From an uncultured bacterium (GTDB taxonomy: Bacteria; Bacillota; Clostridia; Lachnospirales; Lachnospiraceae), in NCBI GenBank assembly GCA_947381965.1, contig CANCXX010000016.1, positions 25,370 through 89,369 on the forward strand: a DNA stretch of 64,000 bases, given 5' to 3'. Made by a program: the position numbers and the translations under genes. Numbering within the stretch: the stretch's first letter is position 1; each line of letters opens with the position of its first letter. The notes under the pieces were generated by a model. The model was not told the origin of the DNA, searched no databases, and saw only the letters and a program-made list of their open reading frames with translations. This document shows, piece by piece, positions 17,010 through 29,740 of this stretch.

Positions 17010-17038
17010 TTGACGAATAGAAAAGAAGCGGATAAAAT
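17010..17038 (+). promoter_or_regulatory. Promoter of the VTC-DUF4956-CotH operon
   Basis: -35 TTGACG (17010-17015), 17-nt spacer, -10 TAAAAT (17033-17038). Transcription would begin near 17045, only about 28 nt before the ribosome site GGAGGTGA at 17073-17080. Confidence 0.75.
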
Positions 17039-17070
17039 GTACGAAGCTGAATATAAAAACGATTCAATTT

Positions 17071-17799
17071 TTGGAGGTGAAAAATATAAAGAACTACAGA
17101 AGCGAATGGAAATATTGCGAGAAAGAAGCGGATTTACTTGCCATAAAGCAACGGCTGTCTGCAATATTAGACCGGGATCCTCATGCTGGGGAAAATGGAA
17201 GATATTCAATTCACAGTTTATATTTCGATGACTATAAGAACACATGCGCAAGAGAAAACGTAGCAGGTGAAGGAAAAAGATTTAAGTGGCGCATACGGTA
17301 TTACAGTAATAACTCCAGCAAAATATGGTTGGAGAAAAAAATAAAACAAAATAGCTATTGCCATAAAAGGCAGTGCCTTCTTTCCATCAAAGAATACCAG
17401 GCAATTGTTGATGGAAGAGCAATGGACGTTTATTGGGAAACACAGGAAAATTTACTGAAGGAATTTTGTATAGATATTGCGACAAAGGGGTTTTCTCCTA
17501 AGGTTATTATTGAGTATGAAAGAGAAGCATTTGTAGAAATTATTTCCAATGTCCGGATTACTCTGGACAATAATATTTCAGCCTCAGATGAAATAGACCG
17601 CTTTTTATGTGGAGATTATTTTAGGATTCCAATTCTGGAAAATCATAAACATATTTTAGAAGTAAAATTTGATGATGTATTGCCTTCTTATATCAGAGCT
17701 GTACTTCAGTCCAGCGTACTTATACAACAATCCTTTTCAAAATATTATTTGGGAAGAGTCGCGATACAGGAAAACCGAAAATACTGTAAGATAATGTAA
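17071..17799 (+). CDS. VTC-domain polyphosphate polymerase-like protein (with CotH operon)
   Basis: About 240 residues of VTC catalytic-domain type: YRSEWKYCEKEADLL at the start, SLYFDDY, KWRIRYYSN and LEKKIKQ basic strands, KVIIEYEREAF, LEVKFDDVLPSYI and the closing SFSKYYLG. In Vtc4 the matching basic tunnel polymerises ATP gamma-phosphate into polyphosphate. No membrane helix; the partner DUF4956 protein follows 14 nt later. The start is odd: the TTG at 17071 is itself part of the ribosome site, whereas an ATA at 17086 sits at ideal distance (8 nt) from GGAGG. An earlier ATG at 17037 is in another frame and within the -10. Either a non-AUG start is used or a start codon has mutated. Substrate use in vivo is inferred. 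Confidence 0.82.
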   Translation: MEVKNIKNYRSEWKYCEKEADLLAIKQRLSAILDRDPHAGENGRYSIHSLYFDDYKNTCARENVAGEGKRFKWRIRYYSNNSSKIWLEKKIKQNSYCHKRQCLLSIKEYQAIVDGRAMDVYWETQENLLKEFCIDIATKGFSPKVIIEYEREAFVEIISNVRITLDNNISASDEIDRFLCGDYFRIPILENHKHILEVKFDDVLPSYIRAVLQSSVLIQQSFSKYYLGRVAIQENRKYCKIM

Positions 17800-17813
17800 G
17801 GAGAATATATAAA

Positions 17814-18488
17814 ATGGGATTTATAGACGCAATTGGAAGGCACATAATGGAAGGTTTTCAGCATAATGAGATTTCAACTTCCATGTTGTTGGCAACGCTA
17901 TGTATAACTGGCGTGCTAGCATTATACGAGTTTATCGTTTATCAGGTAATTTTGCACCGTTCTTTGTACAATAAAGCATTTAATATCAGTATTTCAGTCC
18001 TCCCTTTTTTCATTTCCACAATAATTTTATGTTTACAATCAAATCTGGTCATTACACTTGGCACCATAGGCGCATTGGCAATTATACGATTCCGAACTGC
18101 TGTAAAAGACCCTGTCGACCTGATTTTTATTTTATGGTCCATTCATATTGGCATTACTTGTGGCTGCCAGCTGTATGAAACTGCAATTGCAACTGCGTTC
18201 ATCGTAACTGTCATATTGATCGTGTTAAACCGTATGAATATAAAAACAAAGTCGCATATTCTTATTATCCATTGCGCTTCGGCAGATTGTGAAGCTGAAA
18301 TGACAGACTTAATAAGAAAAAATACCCAAAAATACCGCGTAAAAAGTAGAAATTATACAGAAAAAGGTATGGATTATGTGCTTGAAATTATTGTAAAGGA
18401 AACAATGCCTCTGGTTAACGGTATGGAAAAATTTTCGGGTATTGAGCGTTTTTCTTTAATGGAGTATGATGCAGATGATATTCTATAA
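17814..18488 (+). CDS. DUF4956 membrane protein, partner of the VTC enzyme
   Basis: 224 residues with AAGGAG before the ATG. Four predicted helices in the first 140 residues, then a cytosolic alpha/beta tail of about 80 residues. The segment GTIGALAIIRFRTAVKDPVD between helices 3 and 4 is the family hallmark; the second copy at 27978-28652 has the parallel GMVGALSIVRFRTAIKEPMD. DUF4956 genes regularly sit next to VTC-domain genes, so a membrane channel or anchor for polyphosphate made on the cytosolic side is a reasonable but untested idea. The 3' end overlaps the CotH gene by 23 nt. Confidence 0.88.
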   Translation: MGFIDAIGRHIMEGFQHNEISTSMLLATLCITGVLALYEFIVYQVILHRSLYNKAFNISISVLPFFISTIILCLQSNLVITLGTIGALAIIRFRTAVKDPVDLIFILWSIHIGITCGCQLYETAIATAFIVTVILIVLNRMNIKTKSHILIIHCASADCEAEMTDLIRKNTQKYRVKSRNYTEKGMDYVLEIIVKETMPLVNGMEKFSGIERFSLMEYDADDIL

Positions 18489-20172
18489 AAAAAAGCGCAG
18501 AATATTTTGGTGGGGCAGCGTACTTGTAATCTTTATATTAGTATTATGTGAACTGAAACCCAAAAGCGGCGATGTGATTTCCACAGGAAGCATGGATTTG
18601 ATTTTTTCTAAAGAACCCGGATTTTATGAGGAAGCGTTTGAGCTGGAACTGATAACAGAATCCGGAACAATTTATTATACTTTGGATGGAACGACGCCCG
18701 ATAACCATTCTATGAAATATGAAAGCCCTATTCTGATATCCGACGCCACTGAAAATGATAATCTATATTCAATGCGGACAGATGTTTCCACTGGATTTGA
18801 GAAAGAAGAAATAGAAAAGGTCAATTCCGATTATCCTGGATATCAAATTCCTGATTTTAAAATAGATAAAGCAACGATTGTATGCGCCGTTGTATATGAT
18901 GACTTTGGAAATTACAGCGATGTAAAGACAGCAACCTATTTTGTGGGATATTCCCATAAAGATGGATATGAGGGAATGAAAATATTAAGCATTATAACAG
19001 ACCCGGCTAATTTGTTTGATTATGAGAATGGTATATATGTGACAGGCAAGACCTATGATGAATATGTAAAGGAATATAGAGGTAAAGAATACTACTGGAG
19101 AGAAGAATTCTGGACATTGTGGTCAGCAAATTATAGAAACAGAGGAATGAAATGGGAAAGGAACGCGACCTGTCAGTTTTTTAACGATAATATACTGGTT
19201 TTAAACCAGAAGTGTGGAATCCGCATTCACGGAGGCGCAAGCAGAGGATATAATCCTAAAAGTTTGAATCTATATGCCAGGGAATCATATGACGGAAATA
19301 AATATCTAAATTATGATTTATTTGGAACCGGTTATTATGCTTCAGCCGTTACCCTCTCTCAAGGAGGAAATGATACACGAACAAAAGCAAAAGACTATCT
19401 GGTGTCTGCTTCAATAAAAGATCTACAGATAGCTGCAATGAATTATGAACCATATATTCTGTTTTTAAATGGAGAGTATTGGGGAATGTATTGGCTGAAT
19501 GAAAAATATAATACGGATTATCTTGCTCAATATTATAATGTCAGCAAAGACAATGTTATAATGATTAAGGAAGGTATCCTGGATGAGGGCGATGAGGAGG
19601 ATTATAAATATTATTCTAAGATGATAGAATTTTGTTCTAAAACCGATACTACAAAAGAGGCAAATTATAAAAGAATTTGTGAATTAATTGATATAGAAAG
19701 TTATACAGATTATTATGCCGTTATGCTGTTCATTGGCAGAAATGCAGACTGGCCGACAGGAAATTTTGCATTGTGGCGGGTGAAAAAGAGTGAAAGCGGA
19801 CCATATGGAGACGGAAAATGGCGTTGGATGATTTTTGACTTGAATTCCCCTGGATTTAGCCCGGAATTTGATTCCATACAATATACAATTGACAATGATG
19901 CAATGTTTAAAAATCTAATGAGAAACGATATGTTTCGCACACAGTTAATATGCAAAATAGAGCAGCTGGCAAATACCTCCTTTTCTGGGGAAGTAATGGG
20001 GAATCGAATAAATGAATATATAAAATTTGCGTCCGGACCAATGAAGGTAAATGACAGACGTTTTTTTAATGATGATTCTTTAGATATTTTTTATAAGGAA
20101 ATGGAAGAATTAAAAATTTTTTTTGTAGAACGAATGACATACCTTAATCCTGTATTAGATAGTTATAGATAG
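18466..20172 (+). CDS. cotH: CotH-family kinase, membrane-anchored and extracellular
   Basis: 568 residues. Basic start and one helix (about 12-30) export the rest. Residues 45-90 look like a chitobiase-type beta domain (GTIYYTLDGTTPD). The CotH kinase fold follows: GIRIHGGASRGYNPKSLNLY (250-270, K265 as likely ATP lysine), LFLNGEYWGMYWLNEKYN (332-349), ADWPTGNFAL (D428, N433) and RWMIFDLNSPG (D458), which match the catalytic and metal-binding stations of CotH. Bacillus CotH is an atypical protein kinase acting on spore-coat proteins; here it is operonic with VTC/DUF4956 and faces outside, where ATP is absent. Polyphosphate or a lipid phosphate as donor is speculation. Start is 18466 or 18475. 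Confidence 0.88.
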   Translation: MMQMIFYKKKRRIFWWGSVLVIFILVLCELKPKSGDVISTGSMDLIFSKEPGFYEEAFELELITESGTIYYTLDGTTPDNHSMKYESPILISDATENDNLYSMRTDVSTGFEKEEIEKVNSDYPGYQIPDFKIDKATIVCAVVYDDFGNYSDVKTATYFVGYSHKDGYEGMKILSIITDPANLFDYENGIYVTGKTYDEYVKEYRGKEYYWREEFWTLWSANYRNRGMKWERNATCQFFNDNILVLNQKCGIRIHGGASRGYNPKSLNLYARESYDGNKYLNYDLFGTGYYASAVTLSQGGNDTRTKAKDYLVSASIKDLQIAAMNYEPYILFLNGEYWGMYWLNEKYNTDYLAQYYNVSKDNVIMIKEGILDEGDEEDYKYYSKMIEFCSKTDTTKEANYKRICELIDIESYTDYYAVMLFIGRNADWPTGNFALWRVKKSESGPYGDGKWRWMIFDLNSPGFSPEFDSIQYTIDNDAMFKNLMRNDMFRTQLICKIEQLANTSFSGEVMGNRINEYIKFASGPMKVNDRRFFNDDSLDIFYKEMEELKIFFVERMTYLNPVLDSYR

Positions 20173-24582: not shown

Positions 24583-26142
24583 CTATTTCTTTTTATATTC
24601 TTTTTCTGCCTGTCTTGTATAATCCTTCCAATCTTTCCAGTCCGGGTGAAAGGTTCCCTTCGCAAATGCCACCAGCCAGGCTGCAGCCTGTTTATGGGTA
24701 CACTGATTTTTAAAGTATCGGAGCTTATCGGAATCCGCTCTGGTTACTGACACCTTGCAGCGGCCGTCTGACTTATCTCCGCCCTGAATGCGCATCCACA
24801 AATAGCCTCCCGGCAAAGTCAGATCTATCAGCTGATAGGTTCCCTCTTCCAGTCCCTCTGCCGCTACTTCCACATCTTCCAACGTAAACCTCTCATGGCT
24901 TTGAAAAACGCCCTGAGCAGTCATAAGCCCCAGATGTGGCGGCGGAATCTCCCGCTTCTTTTGCTGCTCCTTTTTTTCAAAAAGCTGCACATCCTCCCAT
25001 TTCTCCAGATTGGGAACCTCCCCCTGCAGCCATGCCTTAAGAATCTCCTGCGCCCTGGGGATATCTGTCCAAAATTCTTTACCATACTGAAGCGTCCTTC
25101 CATCCTTTACAGATGTTATCTTAAGGAGAAGCTCCGCCTCTCCCAAGTCCTCCATCTCCTGAGCGGACGGTTCTTCTATTTCCTCATAAAAAGCGGCAAA
25201 GCATTCCATTCCCACATAACGGACATCTCCCTGTACAACAGGGCATCCTGGGGTTAAAAGCAAAGTTCCCTCTCCCTGCTTTAAACAGTCCATCAGTGCC
25301 CGACCAACCAAATCCGGTGTCACTCTTGAAGTTACATCGCCATCCGGGAAAGTAAGGGTCATGTTCTGTTCTGTAACCATACCGCCGCTTCCGGCGCCAA
25401 ACGCCGCCATTTCCCGCTCCCCCTGCCTCACCCGGTATTCCCGGAGCATGTCTGCCCACTCCATATCGGACTTCTGGCACCAGACCGTGCACTCTCTGTA
25501 CGGCCTGCACAAAGCGTCCGGCGCCCGCAGAGAAATGCAGTCCAAAAGGGGCTGCAGCTCCCTGGGATTGCGAAGTGTAAAAATGTGGCGCTGCTTCCGG
25601 TCATCCAGTATGTGAAGCTCCACAATCCGTGAAGTGTTTGTGCGCTCCCCGGAGGTGTGGGTGCGGATCTCGTCCCTTCCAAAGAATAATCTGATACGCG
25701 GGATATAATTTGCCTCCTCCCCAAGCACCCATTCCTTTCCCACAGCCACCTTGTCAAACCACTGACCGTTTTCCTCAATATCCTTATCCACCATGGCAAA
25801 TAACTCCCCTACCTCCGGCCCGGAGTCAGGGTATGGCAGCTGGGACCGGATGGAACGGGCCAATGTGCTTTTCTGGGGCCAAAAGGCATCCCGGATGGCC
25901 GTATAAGCTGTAACAATTCCTGAAATTGTCAAAAGGATAGCACCCAACCATCCTACCGCCAGCTTTATATACTCCATATAGCTCCAGTCTGCTTTATCCG
26001 CCACAAGTTCCATGCAGCCATAAATGCCTGCCAGCCCTCCCAGCAGCAAAAGCAACAGCGCCAGCCATAATGACAGCAGCCTTTTTTGGGTTATTTTCAG
26101 GCAATAGCTTCCTCTTACCGCCCCTGGATTTTGCCCCTTCAA
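24583..26142 (-). CDS. Unknown two-helix membrane protein with large cytosolic part
   Basis: 519 residues from a TTG at 26142; GGGAGG lies 8 nt upstream, which supports the TTG. Two predicted helices (about 24-45 and 64-84) are followed by a roughly 430-residue soluble region of mixed alpha/beta character. Parts such as LFFGRDEIRTHTSGERTN and PHLGLMTAQGVFQSHERF do not match any family I recognise. The stop lies 23 nt before the Sel1-repeat gene, so the two probably form one operon and may interact. Base composition is slightly higher in GC than the glycan genes, similar to the Sel1 gene. Confidence 0.7.
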   Translation of the reverse strand: MKGQNPGAVRGSYCLKITQKRLLSLWLALLLLLLGGLAGIYGCMELVADKADWSYMEYIKLAVGWLGAILLTISGIVTAYTAIRDAFWPQKSTLARSIRSQLPYPDSGPEVGELFAMVDKDIEENGQWFDKVAVGKEWVLGEEANYIPRIRLFFGRDEIRTHTSGERTNTSRIVELHILDDRKQRHIFTLRNPRELQPLLDCISLRAPDALCRPYRECTVWCQKSDMEWADMLREYRVRQGEREMAAFGAGSGGMVTEQNMTLTFPDGDVTSRVTPDLVGRALMDCLKQGEGTLLLTPGCPVVQGDVRYVGMECFAAFYEEIEEPSAQEMEDLGEAELLLKITSVKDGRTLQYGKEFWTDIPRAQEILKAWLQGEVPNLEKWEDVQLFEKKEQQKKREIPPPHLGLMTAQGVFQSHERFTLEDVEVAAEGLEEGTYQLIDLTLPGGYLWMRIQGGDKSDGRCKVSVTRADSDKLRYFKNQCTHKQAAAWLVAFAKGTFHPDWKDWKDYTRQAEKEYKKK

Positions 26143-26216: not shown

Positions 26217-27761
26217 TCAAATTTCAAGAGGCGTTTCTGTTGATGGGATCAACGCATTTTGTATGCTTTCATTATCTGCACCTTGGCCCTGTTCCTCTTC
26301 AATCCACAAAATGGCATCCCATACCTCCTGGCCATTGTTCTTCTGTTTTGCGCCGGGCGTGCTTCTTCCGTTGCGTATATAGCCTGTCAAAATCTCCCGC
26401 AGCTTTGCTGCTGTCTCAGGGTGCTCCGGTAAGACATTTTGAGTTTCTCCAATGTCCGCCTCTAGGTCATAAAGCTGGAATTGCAAAGAGCCCTCCGGCT
26501 CCTTGCCAGGTTCAGGATACGACCAGCCGCCAGATCCCGGACACATCTCCAATTTCCATTTTCCCTTTCGAATAGACAGAGAGCCGTCTATACTCTGATG
26601 TACAATATCATTACGCACTTCCGCACATTCCTCCGTCCACAGTGGAAGATTGCTTACGCTGTCCTCCCCTTCGTTGTCCTTCAGGGGAATATGCAGGCAG
26701 TCCGCTATGGTGGCCAGGAAATCTGCCAGACATACCACTGCACCGGATACACTGCCACCTTTGATTTTCTCCGGCCATTGTACGATATACGGAATCCTGT
26801 GACCGCCCTCATAAATATCCGCCTTAGCGCCTCTGAAATGGTAGCTGGGGTTATGCCCCTTTCTCTTCAGCTCCTGGAAATCCACAATAGGGCTGCAGCC
26901 GTTATCCGAAGCGTAGGCTAAGATGGTGTTCTCCAGCAATCCCATCTCCTCCAGCTTTTTGCTGATTCTCCCTACCACATCATCACAGTGAAGGACAAAG
27001 TCCCCGTATTCGTTTGTCCCGGATTTCCCCTGAAACCGTTCAGCCGGCAGAATGGGCGTATGGGGGGCAGGCATGGCAAAGTAAATAAAGAAGGCCTCTT
27101 CCTGGTATTCCTCTATCTTTTCTAATACCTTACCACATAGCTCATCCAGCACATTTTCATGAAGGAATCCGGGAGCGGTGGGCCCCTTGCGCCAGAATTT
27201 TTTGCCCGTACTTTCCGTCACCCGGTTCGGCAGGGCCGTAAAACGGTCGTTTTCAATGTAAATATAAGGCGGCATGTCCAGAGAACCGCTGATGCCATAG
27301 TAATAGTCGAAACCGTGCGTTATGGGAGAGCCTTTAATCTCCCCGGAATAATCAACCCCATCGCAGGCTGCAAAGTTTTTCTTTTCATAGAAGCCCTCTG
27401 TCCTAGCAAAGTCCATCCCCAGATGCCATTTCCCCACCATACAGGTACGGTACCCCTCAGACTGCAGCATGCTGGCCACCGTGGTTCGCCCTTCCTCAAG
27501 AATGGGAGCGGAATATCCCCCAATTACCTCCGACTTAAGAACCGAACGCCAGTTGTACCTTCCTGTAAGAAATCCGTACCGGGAAGGAGTGCATACCGCC
27601 GCAGTTGCATGGGCATCCGTAAAACGCATTCCTCTTTCACACATCCGATCCAGATTGGGCGTGGTAAAGGGACATTTTTCATTAAAAGCGGAGATATCGC
27701 CGTATCCCATATCATCGGCCAAAATAAAGATAATGTTTGGTTTTCCGTTTACTCGGTTCAT
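26217..27761 (-). CDS. Type I sulfatase (arylsulfatase family)
   Basis: 514 residues; GGGAGG before ATG 27761. FILADDMGYGD (D16, D17) binds metal, and AAVCTPSRYGFLTGRYNWR gives C57 in CxPSR, the cysteine converted to formylglycine. YASDNGCSP (about residue 260) is the second metal site. No signal peptide or anchor is visible, so it is predicted cytosolic, or exported by a route not evident here. In an anaerobe the Cys-type needs a maturase of the anSME or FGE kind; none is adjacent. Substrates of such enzymes in gut bacteria are sulfated glycans, often mucin or host glycosaminoglycans; not determinable here. A pair of hairpins lies 40-110 nt upstream. Confidence 0.92.
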   Translation of the reverse strand: MNRVNGKPNIIFILADDMGYGDISAFNEKCPFTTPNLDRMCERGMRFTDAHATAAVCTPSRYGFLTGRYNWRSVLKSEVIGGYSAPILEEGRTTVASMLQSEGYRTCMVGKWHLGMDFARTEGFYEKKNFAACDGVDYSGEIKGSPITHGFDYYYGISGSLDMPPYIYIENDRFTALPNRVTESTGKKFWRKGPTAPGFLHENVLDELCGKVLEKIEEYQEEAFFIYFAMPAPHTPILPAERFQGKSGTNEYGDFVLHCDDVVGRISKKLEEMGLLENTILAYASDNGCSPIVDFQELKRKGHNPSYHFRGAKADIYEGGHRIPYIVQWPEKIKGGSVSGAVVCLADFLATIADCLHIPLKDNEGEDSVSNLPLWTEECAEVRNDIVHQSIDGSLSIRKGKWKLEMCPGSGGWSYPEPGKEPEGSLQFQLYDLEADIGETQNVLPEHPETAAKLREILTGYIRNGRSTPGAKQKNNGQEVWDAILWIEEEQGQGADNESIQNALIPSTETPLEI

Positions 27762-27977: not shown

Positions 27978-28652
27978 TTAAAAGGTCACTTCCCCGTCAT
28001 GGGATACCAAAGACACACTCTCCACTCCTTCCATTTTTTCAAGGGCCTGCATCATCTCATATTCTTTCATGGCCCGCAGCTCTATAACCAGATTTAAACG
28101 CCCGGAAGCAATGTTTCTGGATTTTACTTTGTAATATTTACAGTACTCTCTCACCTTTTCTGTAAAAAACGGTTCCTGCTGGGACCTGGCAAGATTTGCC
28201 ACCAAAATCATAGGCGTCCGTCCCCCAGGCAGGCTGTCCAGGCAGGCCACCAGTACCGTAAGCACAACCGAAAGCACCAGCGCAATCTCCGCCATATGCG
28301 CACCGCAGCAGATACCTACCGCAATAGACCAGAACAAAAAGCATAAATCCATAGGCTCCTTGATCGCTGTCCGGAACCGCACAATTGAAAGCGCTCCCAC
28401 CATCCCCAGCGATATAACTATACTGGACTGGACCGCTAATATAATTGCCGCTGTGATTACCGCAATCACAGCAAGAGAAATATTAAAACTTTTGTTATAA
28501 AAAGTTTTCTTTGTAACCAGCCTGTAGACAATAAAAATATAACCGGCTATCAGCGCTGTAATCAAAAGCACCGCCGTAATATGCTGCACACTAATGCTGC
28601 CGCTGGTGTAAGCTGCCAGAAAATCCCCCTTAAAAATGTCAGAAAAACTCAT
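27978..28652 (-). CDS. DUF4956 membrane protein, second copy
   Basis: 224 residues from ATG 28652, chosen because ATAGGAG lies upstream; a 12-codon longer form has none. Four predicted helices and the family segment GMVGALSIVRFRTAIKEPMD, then a cytosolic alpha/beta tail. It has the same length as the copy at 17814 but clearly different sequence, so it is an old paralogue and not a recent duplicate. It follows the second VTC gene by about 290 nt with a terminator between them, so the two are probably separately regulated. No CotH gene is adjacent. Confidence 0.87.
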   Translation of the reverse strand: MSFSDIFKGDFLAAYTSGSISVQHITAVLLITALIAGYIFIVYRLVTKKTFYNKSFNISLAVIAVITAAIILAVQSSIVISLGMVGALSIVRFRTAIKEPMDLCFLFWSIAVGICCGAHMAEIALVLSVVLTVLVACLDSLPGGRTPMILVANLARSQQEPFFTEKVREYCKYYKVKSRNIASGRLNLVIELRAMKEYEMMQALEKMEGVESVSLVSHDGEVTF

Positions 28653-28893
28653 CGCTGCTCCTATCCGCATGTTTTTACATGCACACATTTCATCCTGTGC
28701 CCGTTATTTAATTTTCTGTTGCATTTTCACGTACCCTTTTCTGCTGCCCATCTTTTCACAAAAACATCATTTCCATGCGCCCGGACCATCCTTAGGTCTT
28801 TTACATACAAAAGCTGCTTTCTTAAAAGCCTGGCACTAACACAAACTGATTTCTTCCAAATCATACCGTTAATCACTTTTATCAGTATAACAC

Positions 28894-28920
28894 AAAAAAA
28901 GCCTTTTAAAAGGCTTCTTT
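28894..28920 (-). terminator. Terminator after the second VTC gene
   Basis: A self-complementary core GCCTTTTAAAAGGC (28901-28914) is followed on the minus strand by a run of seven T, about 20 nt after the VTC stop codon. It marks the end of the long leftward glycan operon. Confidence 0.85.
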
Positions 28921-28940: not shown

Positions 28941-29639
28941 TTATAAATTATGAAACTTTCTGCACAAATAGTATTTCGAAAAGGTACTGGCCGTAAGCCC
29001 GTCCAGATGCAGCAGTGTATATATTTCATCCGGAAGGAAACTATCGAACTTTACCTCCATTAAGGCCCTGCCCACAGGCATAACCCCCCTTCCCTGTATT
29101 TTCTCATCCAAAAAGGTAGTTATATCACCTGCTGACATCAGGTTGCAGTCAAAGGTGACTCTTACATTGGCGTCCTCTGACCGGTAGGTATAGGGAAACC
29201 TGTCATAGTCCACAATAACCACCGGACGCATCAGACGCACTGCCATCAGATATGCCAGCTTATGAAGGGCCTGCTGGTCTGCTCTGATATCTCCCGGTAT
29301 CTTTCCTTCCATCAGCTGTCTGCACTGTGAAAGAGAAATCAGGCAGCACCGTTTGCATGTTTTTCCTCTGCGCTTCTGTTTCACCTCCAGATTTATCCGT
29401 TCTGTACTGTGATTGTAAATACGGATTCTGAATTTTTCCCTGTTATCCACACCGTTTTCATTATCCAGATAACAGCCGTTTCCCATATCGTCAAAATAAA
29501 GGCTTCTGATATTATAATATCCTCTCTCCCCTGCATGAACATCCTGATTCATAACCCCCTTTAACCTGGCCTGCTCCATCACAATCTGCCCACAGGTTAT
29601 GGGATATTTATATTCATGTCTGAAACGTGCCTGCTCCAT
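28941..29639 (-). CDS. VTC-domain polyphosphate polymerase-like protein, second copy
   Basis: 232 residues. The start at 29639 is preferred because GGGAGGAAATAC sits just before it; 26 further codons upstream are open but have no ribosome site. VTC signatures: FRHEYKYPITCGQ, SLYFDDM, KFRIRIYNHS, LEVKQKRRGK, VVIVDYDRFPY, LMEVKFDSFLP and TFSKYYLC. It is the last gene of the nine-gene leftward glycan operon and is separated by a terminator from its DUF4956 partner. Together with the copy at 17071 it means two sets in one window, which suggests different partners or conditions. Confidence 0.87.
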   Translation of the reverse strand: MEQARFRHEYKYPITCGQIVMEQARLKGVMNQDVHAGERGYYNIRSLYFDDMGNGCYLDNENGVDNREKFRIRIYNHSTERINLEVKQKRRGKTCKRCCLISLSQCRQLMEGKIPGDIRADQQALHKLAYLMAVRLMRPVVIVDYDRFPYTYRSEDANVRVTFDCNLMSAGDITTFLDEKIQGRGVMPVGRALMEVKFDSFLPDEIYTLLHLDGLTASTFSKYYLCRKFHNL

Positions 29640-29740
29640 GTATTTCCTCCCGCCCATTTCCTGCTCCATAACATGTTTGAAAACCGCTTTGAGCAGTATC
29701 TTAAAAATGCGTTTCATGCCCTGTGGGTTCCTGGGACTTA

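Follow-up and report, generated by a model that had tools for sequence, protein, structure and literature searches.

In eukaryotes, a VTC subunit carries an SPX domain and a membrane (DUF202) part in one protein. The yeast complex (Vtc4/Vtc3/Vtc1) is described, in the available parts of two papers, as a polyphosphate polymerase-translocase with synthesis at the cytosolic face (PMC9911596, PMC10657179). As regards bacteria, the accessible text of a 2020 paper reports cotH, poly-phosphate polymerase, DUF4956 and DUF4832 genes beside Gram-positive pel clusters, and its authors suggest that CotH may regulate Pel synthesis (PMC7112168). In the accessible text of a 2025 study, trio genes of the S. 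intermedius SIR_1591-1594 region were deleted, and the trio arrangement is said not to have been found outside the Pel locus (PMC12345266). The C. perfringens locus NELoc-2 (CP4_0460-0468) is laid out, in the portion of its description at hand, as VTC, 'tubulin', resolvase, VTC, 'tubulin', CotH, a 685-aa protein, HEAT and glycosyltransferase (PMC2879425); because of its size and place, the 'tubulin' is probably DUF4956. Finally, B. subtilis CotH phosphorylates the coat proteins CotB and CotG, according to the available part of PMC9765600. In this study, we examine a cluster of these three families, VTC, DUF4956 and CotH, carried by a 64,000-nucleotide stretch (hereafter the window) of contig CANCXX010000016.1 from an uncultured Lachnospiraceae bacterium. 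We propose that VTC and DUF4956 form a bacterial polyphosphate synthesis-and-export pair and that the third gene, here CotH, encodes its exported client, a reading to which we give a probability of about 0.48. The cluster consists of the following features.

17010..17038, + strand: sigma-70-like promoter TTGACG-17-TAAAAT 5' of the cluster (consensus match only)
17071..17799, + strand: VTC-domain (triphosphate-tunnel, polyphosphate-polymerase-like) protein, 242 aa counted from TTG, PF09359
17814..18488, + strand: DUF4956 membrane protein with C-terminal ACT/ferredoxin-like domain, 224 aa, PF16316
18466..20172, + strand: CotH-family kinase with N-terminal hydrophobic anchor/signal, 568 aa, PF08757

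The tight packing described in the initial annotation was confirmed, with a 14-nt gap between VTC and DUF4956 and a 23-nt overlap between DUF4956 and CotH, and all three proteins have Pfam matches above the curated cut-offs: VTC with PF09359 (E 2.8e-37; the two VTCs of the window score 129 and 126.1 bits, cut-off 23), DUF4956 with PF16316 (E 3.4e-10, 40.4 bits, cut-off 30.6), and CotH with PF08757 (E 7.3e-34, 118.1 bits, cut-off 23.8, profile positions 1-322 of 322 covered). Fn3_assoc and CHB_HEX_C_1 were also matched in CotH, and NCBIfam assigned no family to any of the three proteins at E 0.001.

With the yeast complex, the locus shares the tunnel fold, matched active-site residues and a membrane partner beside the catalytic unit. 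It differs in that no SPX domain or membrane helix was found in its VTC, the membrane partner being the separate gene DUF4956; in bacteria, moreover, a kinase or beta-helix client is attached, and the set would face the outside rather than a vacuole. The Gram-positive Pel accessory genes (PMC7112168, PMC12345266) have the same three families adjoining, with a secreted CotH, whereas the own genome of the window has no PelG match; in the available text of these papers, the form with Cthe_2159 described below is not mentioned. NELoc-2 resembles, as far as its available description goes, a cassette on contig 43 of the own genome (VTC, DUF4956, CotH, a 751-aa protein, HEAT, GT2/chitin-synthase-like), whereas the window cluster is without HEAT and GT2 genes. 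With the Bacillus spore-coat kinase (5jd9), the window CotH shares the kinase domain and its aligned Asp, Asn and Glu, but it is predicted to be exported, has N-terminal Fn3_assoc/CHB_HEX domains and is linked to VTC-DUF4956.

Recurrence of the trio and an alternative partner

The trio was searched for in 148 genomes of the host's class, its own among them. Genome counts refer to matches at E 0.001 (above the curated cut-off are 76/76 VTC, 72/73 DUF4956, 58/59 CotH and 55/56 Cthe_2159 genomes); such searches miss genes in incomplete genomes, and the Fisher tests used throughout ignore phylogeny. There were 99 VTC matches in 76 genomes, 95 DUF4956 matches in 73, and 114 CotH genes in 59. DUF4956 was found within 1 kb and on the same strand at 88 of the 99 VTC matches. 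Among the other 11, seven are partial VTC matches, two lie at a contig start (G071, G032), one is separated from DUF4956 by an intervening gene (G018), and the last has its DUF4956 on a different contig (G043). CotH lies within 3 kb of 42 VTC matches. When both neighbours were required, 41 trios remained in 31 genomes, in the order VTC-DUF4956-CotH (29), CotH-VTC-DUF4956 (8) or others (4). A limit of 3.5 kb gave 43 VTC-CotH loci in 33 genomes, covering 23 family and 28 genus codes. Median gaps are short: 8 nt for VTC-DUF4956 (n=79), 14 nt for DUF4956-CotH (n=31) and 19 nt for CotH-VTC (n=10).

At the genome level, CotH is present in 54/76 genomes with VTC versus 5/72 without (p 1.2e-16), whereas the polyphosphate kinase PPK, taken as a control, shows no association with VTC (28/76 versus 18/72, p 0.16). 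Chance neighbourhood was rejected: by a rough estimate, about 0.2 CotH genes would be expected to have a same-strand VTC within 3.5 kb, and 45/114 were seen within 3 kb of a VTC. The co-occurrence that the initial annotation proposed to look for is thus found in the class (DUF4956 at 88/99 and CotH at 42/99 VTC matches) and repeated in a second phylum, and the survey supports the trio as a real, recurrent and co-inherited unit.

The second sample comprised 198 genomes from the phylum of an uncultured Treponema genome. VTC was matched in 18 of them (17 above cut-off) and CotH in 31, with both in 14 (p 5.5e-10). DUF4956 was sought in the 17 fetched VTC loci, the one VTC match below cut-off being excluded, and was found at 16 (about 2.1 kb from VTC in L202); a nearby same-strand CotH was found at 12 and Cthe_2159 at one. 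Among the 80 named loci whose DUF4956 is nearest to that of the window cluster, which include Paenibacillus, Treponema, Trichococcus and an Elusimicrobiaceae record, VTC was present in 76, CotH in 64 (counted on either strand, the opposite one in L149 and L160) and Cthe_2159 in 9 within the fetched stretch, shares that are biased because the loci were picked by likeness to that protein. In 14 named control genomes, VTC and DUF4956 were matched in the same three, two of which have CotH and the third Cthe_2159.

Outside the own genome, neighbours were mapped at 39 VTC-CotH loci and at 40 of the 46 pairs without CotH. Two DUF4956 matches carry no gene label, and none of the labelled reading frames turned out to be a natural VTC-DUF4956 fusion. 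Two-component histidine kinase genes adjoin the trios of L060 and L061 by Pfam, and putative ones, judged by size and sequence start, adjoin those of L069, L070 and L071.

At CotH-less pairs, a large exported-looking protein often lies 3'. All ten downstream neighbours scanned with Pfam, hand-picked for the purpose, belong to Cthe_2159 (PF14262), as do two upstream ones, while two other small or upstream neighbours (L088, L102) do not. Cthe_2159 is present in 56 of the 148 class genomes, at 78 places once pieces of single genes were joined by hand. Within 3.5 kb of 89 VTC-DUF4956 pairs, CotH was found at 42, Cthe_2159 at 24, and both at none. One or the other partner occurs in 73/76 genomes with VTC versus 9/72 without (p 6.5e-28). 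Strict mutual exclusion of the two holds within 3.5 kb in the class survey (0/99 loci) but was rejected as a general rule, since 6/80 named loci carry both; three of the Cthe_2159 assignments in these six were confirmed by Pfam. In a quick VTC tree with long branches and no label-shuffle control, the midpoint split leaves 37 rows on one side (20 Cthe_2159-linked, 3 CotH-linked, 14 neither) and 46 on the other (39 CotH-linked, 2 Cthe_2159-linked, 5 neither), and at least five changes between the two partners are required.

Cthe_2159 as an alternative exported partner of VTC-DUF4956 is new here, and we found no paper joining them in the open-licence literature searched. Cthe_2159 proteins are described, in the accessible part of PMC6712302, as beta-helix proteins with affinity for cellulose and for acid sugars, polygalacturonic acid among them; as putative clients of the pair, they may bind its polyphosphate polyanion. 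Next to one VTC-DUF4956-Cthe_2159 set lies a lipoprotein-like metallo-beta-lactamase-fold protein (L088:545-1399), with a response-regulator-like and a kinase-sized gene alongside; look-alikes by sequence start occur in L093 and L098.

The trio also appears to extend beyond genomes with Pel. PelG was matched above cut-off in 5 of the 148 class genomes. Only 6 of the 43 VTC-CotH loci are in these five, and the other 37 lie in genomes where no PelG was found above cut-off; this widens the published picture tying the trio to the Pel polysaccharide. No PelG match was found in the own genome (96.66% complete), and a Pel accessory module was therefore rejected for the window locus. The new link between polyphosphate and surface phosphorylation announced in the initial annotation is partly anticipated, by the 2020 publication of the co-location with Pel and by a mention of the phosphate theme in 2025.

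The VTC, DUF4956 and CotH proteins

The model of the window VTC has a tunnel fold nearest to Vtc4, and not to CYTH enzymes. In an alignment of 82 of 84 VTC reading frames (the others were dropped by length), the Vtc4 active-site Arg, Lys and Glu are kept in 82/82 bacterial proteins at most positions, and K224 in 81/82, the equivalences with Vtc4 at the C-terminal end being inferred. Because the model matches yeast Vtc4 and these residues are retained, VTC likely makes polyphosphate, and the polymerase-like assignment made earlier is upheld by fold and residues. Single-sequence searches of the PDB with the three window proteins gave no real match.

DUF4956, initially described as a four-helix protein, does have predicted membrane helices, but they number about five of membrane length and are followed by a further domain. 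Its model (predicted local distance difference test score, pLDDT, 87.4) has helices at 22-46, 54-74, 78-94, 100-117 and 121-140, and then an ACT/ferredoxin-like domain that starts near 144 and runs to the C-terminal end. A profile search of the PDB returned only a weak ACT match (E 0.14), and the C-terminal domain of MgtC (2lqj) is a weak fold match (E 1.1e-2); with the MgtC family itself (PF02308), the window protein scores 24 bits, below the cut-off of 31.4. Among 79 aligned proteins (out of 81 reading frames, the others dropped by length), no variation is seen at G86, R94 and G113, and next to none at R92, F93 and N77. The resulting R-F-R motif closes helix 78-94 and would lie at the inner face if the C-terminal domain is cytosolic.

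The profile of the window CotH matches 5jd9, the Bacillus CotH kinase, at E 6.1e-41. Its N426, D428, D458 and E346, which we take to be the catalytic residues, align with N222, D224, D247 and E124 of the 5jd9 chain and are conserved in 37, 38, 40 and 39, respectively, of 40 aligned CotH proteins (out of 48 reading frames, the others dropped by length). The N-terminus shows a basic stretch and a hydrophobic segment, with no visible lipobox. Such a segment is found in 42/42 CotHs of at least 460 aa (7 with a lipobox-like motif) versus 0/84 VTC, export and membrane helices being judged here by a crude hydropathy count. An exported kinase, as first annotated, is therefore what residues and hydropathy predict.

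Across 37 trios, the pairwise distances of CotH, DUF4956 and VTC co-vary (0.85 to 0.91). When CotH was swapped among clusters of the same genome, the VTC-CotH value fell to a mean of 0.459 (0/2000 as high), and when DUF4956 was swapped likewise, the VTC-DUF4956 value fell from 0.909 to 0.515 (1/2000 as high). Each CotH thus tracks the VTC of its cluster, which is the behaviour of a unit.

A split Pfam CotH match was also observed: 15 of 16 such genes are VTC-linked, versus 31/98 unsplit ones. In 14 of them, the gap of 45-154 aa is mostly of low complexity, rich in Pro, Gly, Asn and Asp (L037, L044, L045, L050, L055, L058, L059, L061, L068, L069, L071, L072, L073 and L076); in L042, the split is a frame break instead.

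Proposed polyphosphate export and other explanations

The proposed pathway has three steps, held with unequal confidence. Cytosolic VTC, judging from fold and residues, would probably polymerise phosphate from ATP. DUF4956 might then, at roughly even odds, take the chain at the inner face through its near-invariant R-F-R and move it across the membrane. Outside, a client, CotH or, in the sister form, Cthe_2159, would perhaps act on the polyphosphate; their linkage is observed, and for the action we would put the chances slightly short of even. That CotH in particular modifies surface proteins or polysaccharides with phosphate drawn from polyphosphate is doubtful, though conceivable. The complete picture, a widespread system in which polyphosphate made inside and exported via DUF4956 replaces ATP for the surface kinase CotH, with Cthe_2159 as an alternative polymer-binding client, is unlikely in that full form. 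If true, it would account for the activity of exported kinases in surroundings that lack ATP. Being conserved, present in at least two phyla and linked to either of two exported partners, the pair offers a concrete system in which to address both the phosphate source of exported bacterial kinases outside the cell and the role of bacterial VTC. No paper proposing polyphosphate as a CotH donor was found in the open-licence literature searched.

Several observations weigh against polyphosphate synthesis and export for a surface client. The most direct come from S. intermedius, where the four-helix plus ACT membrane protein SIR_1592 is equated here with DUF4956. In the accessible text of PMC12345266, mutants of SIR_1592 and SIR_1594 (CotH) lose more than half of their aggregation in artificial sputum medium, with Pel raised in the former and lowered in the latter, whereas the knockout of SIR_1593 (polyphosphate polymerase, VTC) still aggregates and no Pel change is reported. 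In our view, no other result speaks as strongly as this knockout against a strict VTC-to-CotH chain; it could be explained by an unsuitable assay or a second polyphosphate source, but equally by a regulatory role. Against such a chain also stands the non-kinase partner in place of CotH at 24/99 VTC loci, and 23/89 VTC-DUF4956 pairs have neither client within 3.5 kb. No structural match showing a channel was obtained for the membrane half of DUF4956. As for VTC, no SPX domain was found in the window proteins (242 and 258 aa), in which PF09359 is the sole Pfam family at E 0.001, and the crude hydropathy count gave no membrane helix for any VTC gene on the operon maps. In the own genome, a PPK1-type polyphosphate kinase match lies on contig 29 (5967-6509, - strand), and the idea that VTC is the only polyphosphate polymerase there was rejected. 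Lastly, the co-variation of VTC and CotH could result from nothing more than inheritance of the cluster as a whole.

These knockouts bear on a regulatory explanation, in which VTC and an MgtC-like, ACT-bearing DUF4956 form an inner-membrane phosphate or nucleotide sensor tuning surface polysaccharide or protein, CotH being the exported effector, with little or no polyphosphate export. The C-terminal ACT/ferredoxin-like domain of DUF4956 fits such a sensor, as do Pel amounts that, in the available account of PMC12345266, are shifted and not abolished, with aggregation maintained in the VTC knockout; the authors' own suggestions, in the accessible text, are regulation or phosphate metabolism (PMC7112168, PMC12345266). 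Two-component genes beside several loci agree with it too (histidine kinases by Pfam in two, others by look only). However, a pure sensor would not need the polymerase residue set kept in 82/82 VTC at most positions, and VTC pairs with a non-kinase beta-helix protein as well. We consider this explanation rather unlikely.

The active site of VTC raises a second question, namely whether its product is polyphosphate. Position 12, beside R10, is Glu in 81/82 bacterial proteins versus Thr198 in Vtc4, so that the activity may differ from that of Vtc4, a further point against our proposal. In triphosphatases, a Glu in such a motif is part of the acidic patch, as described in the available part of PMC4641920 (the motif match is ours). 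VTC could then catalyse a different reaction on triphosphates, such as a tripolyphosphatase or nucleotidyl-type one, with DUF4956 moving a product other than polyphosphate. The tunnel fold is common to enzymes of several activities, and the R-x-E-x-K motif retains one acidic position absent from Vtc4; given a model nearest to Vtc4 and the retained polymerase residues, we hold this to be decidedly unlikely.

CotH, for its part, is common away from VTC, which tells against our proposal and against a strict chain from VTC to CotH: 69 of the 114 CotH genes of the class have no VTC nearby, 17 of the 31 CotH genomes of the second phylum are without VTC, and the B. subtilis control genome has a CotH match alone, with no VTC or DUF4956 match, and its CotH phosphorylates CotB and CotG (PMC9765600, available part). 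CotH might thus use ATP, before export or leaked, and its linkage to VTC would reflect only a part in the same surface process, for instance exopolysaccharide coating, with no substrate exchange. Against this, VTC and CotH co-vary as cognates within multi-copy genomes, and VTC is present in 54 of the 59 CotH genomes of the class sample. An ATP-using CotH with no exchange is, in our view, quite unlikely as the explanation of the linkage.

Gene starts, second pair and the rest of the genome

The promoter placed ahead of the cluster by the initial annotation exists as a sequence matching 10/12 consensus positions. It is nonetheless weak evidence for transcription of the cluster from one promoter, because promoter-like sites are common in this stretch (47 versus 28.7 +/- 6.1 in shuffles). 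The VTC gene has no ATG start. The candidates within 17071-17091 (+ strand) are TTG at 17071 and GTG at 17077, which fall directly before or within the Shine-Dalgarno-like GGAGGTGA, and an in-frame ATA at 17086, which has a normal spacing from it. The true start is perhaps this ATA, and the lack of an ATG would mean that a rare start codon is used or that the sequence has changed recently.

Also confirmed is a paralogous VTC/DUF4956 pair without adjoining CotH, interrupted by a terminator-like hairpin; its coordinates below use longer start choices than those first given.

27978..28688, - strand: second DUF4956 protein, 236 aa, PF16316 (E 1.4e-12, 48.1 bits)
28895..28920, - strand: terminator-like hairpin separating the second VTC from the second DUF4956 (pattern match only)
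28941..29717, - strand: second VTC-domain protein, 258 aa, PF09359 (E 2e-36)

The second VTC is placed on the CotH side of the VTC tree, and the pair may be an extra synthesis-export unit, perhaps for one of two CotH genes found elsewhere in the genome, on contig 5, which has no VTC. In total, the own genome has 5 VTC, 5 DUF4956 and 6 CotH genes (7 CotH matches, two being pieces of one gene); all five VTC have a DUF4956 partner and CotH adjoins four of the five pairs. The window is part of contig 16 of a 4.3-Mb assembly listed with 7.31% contamination, so that single contigs could be foreign.

On contig 43 (L036:7100-15238), three genes come after VTC-DUF4956-CotH, for a 751-aa protein lacking any Pfam match, for a HEAT protein and for a GT2/chitin-synthase-like transferase, and cassettes resembling it by gene sizes occur in L046, L048, L051, L054, L057 and L064, and partly in L075. 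In the window, about 220 nt 3' of the second DUF4956, lies a sulfatase-family protein with no obvious signal peptide (26217-27761, - strand), and at 24583-26142 (- strand) a 519-aa protein with no Pfam match at E 0.001 has a hydrophobic N-terminal stretch.

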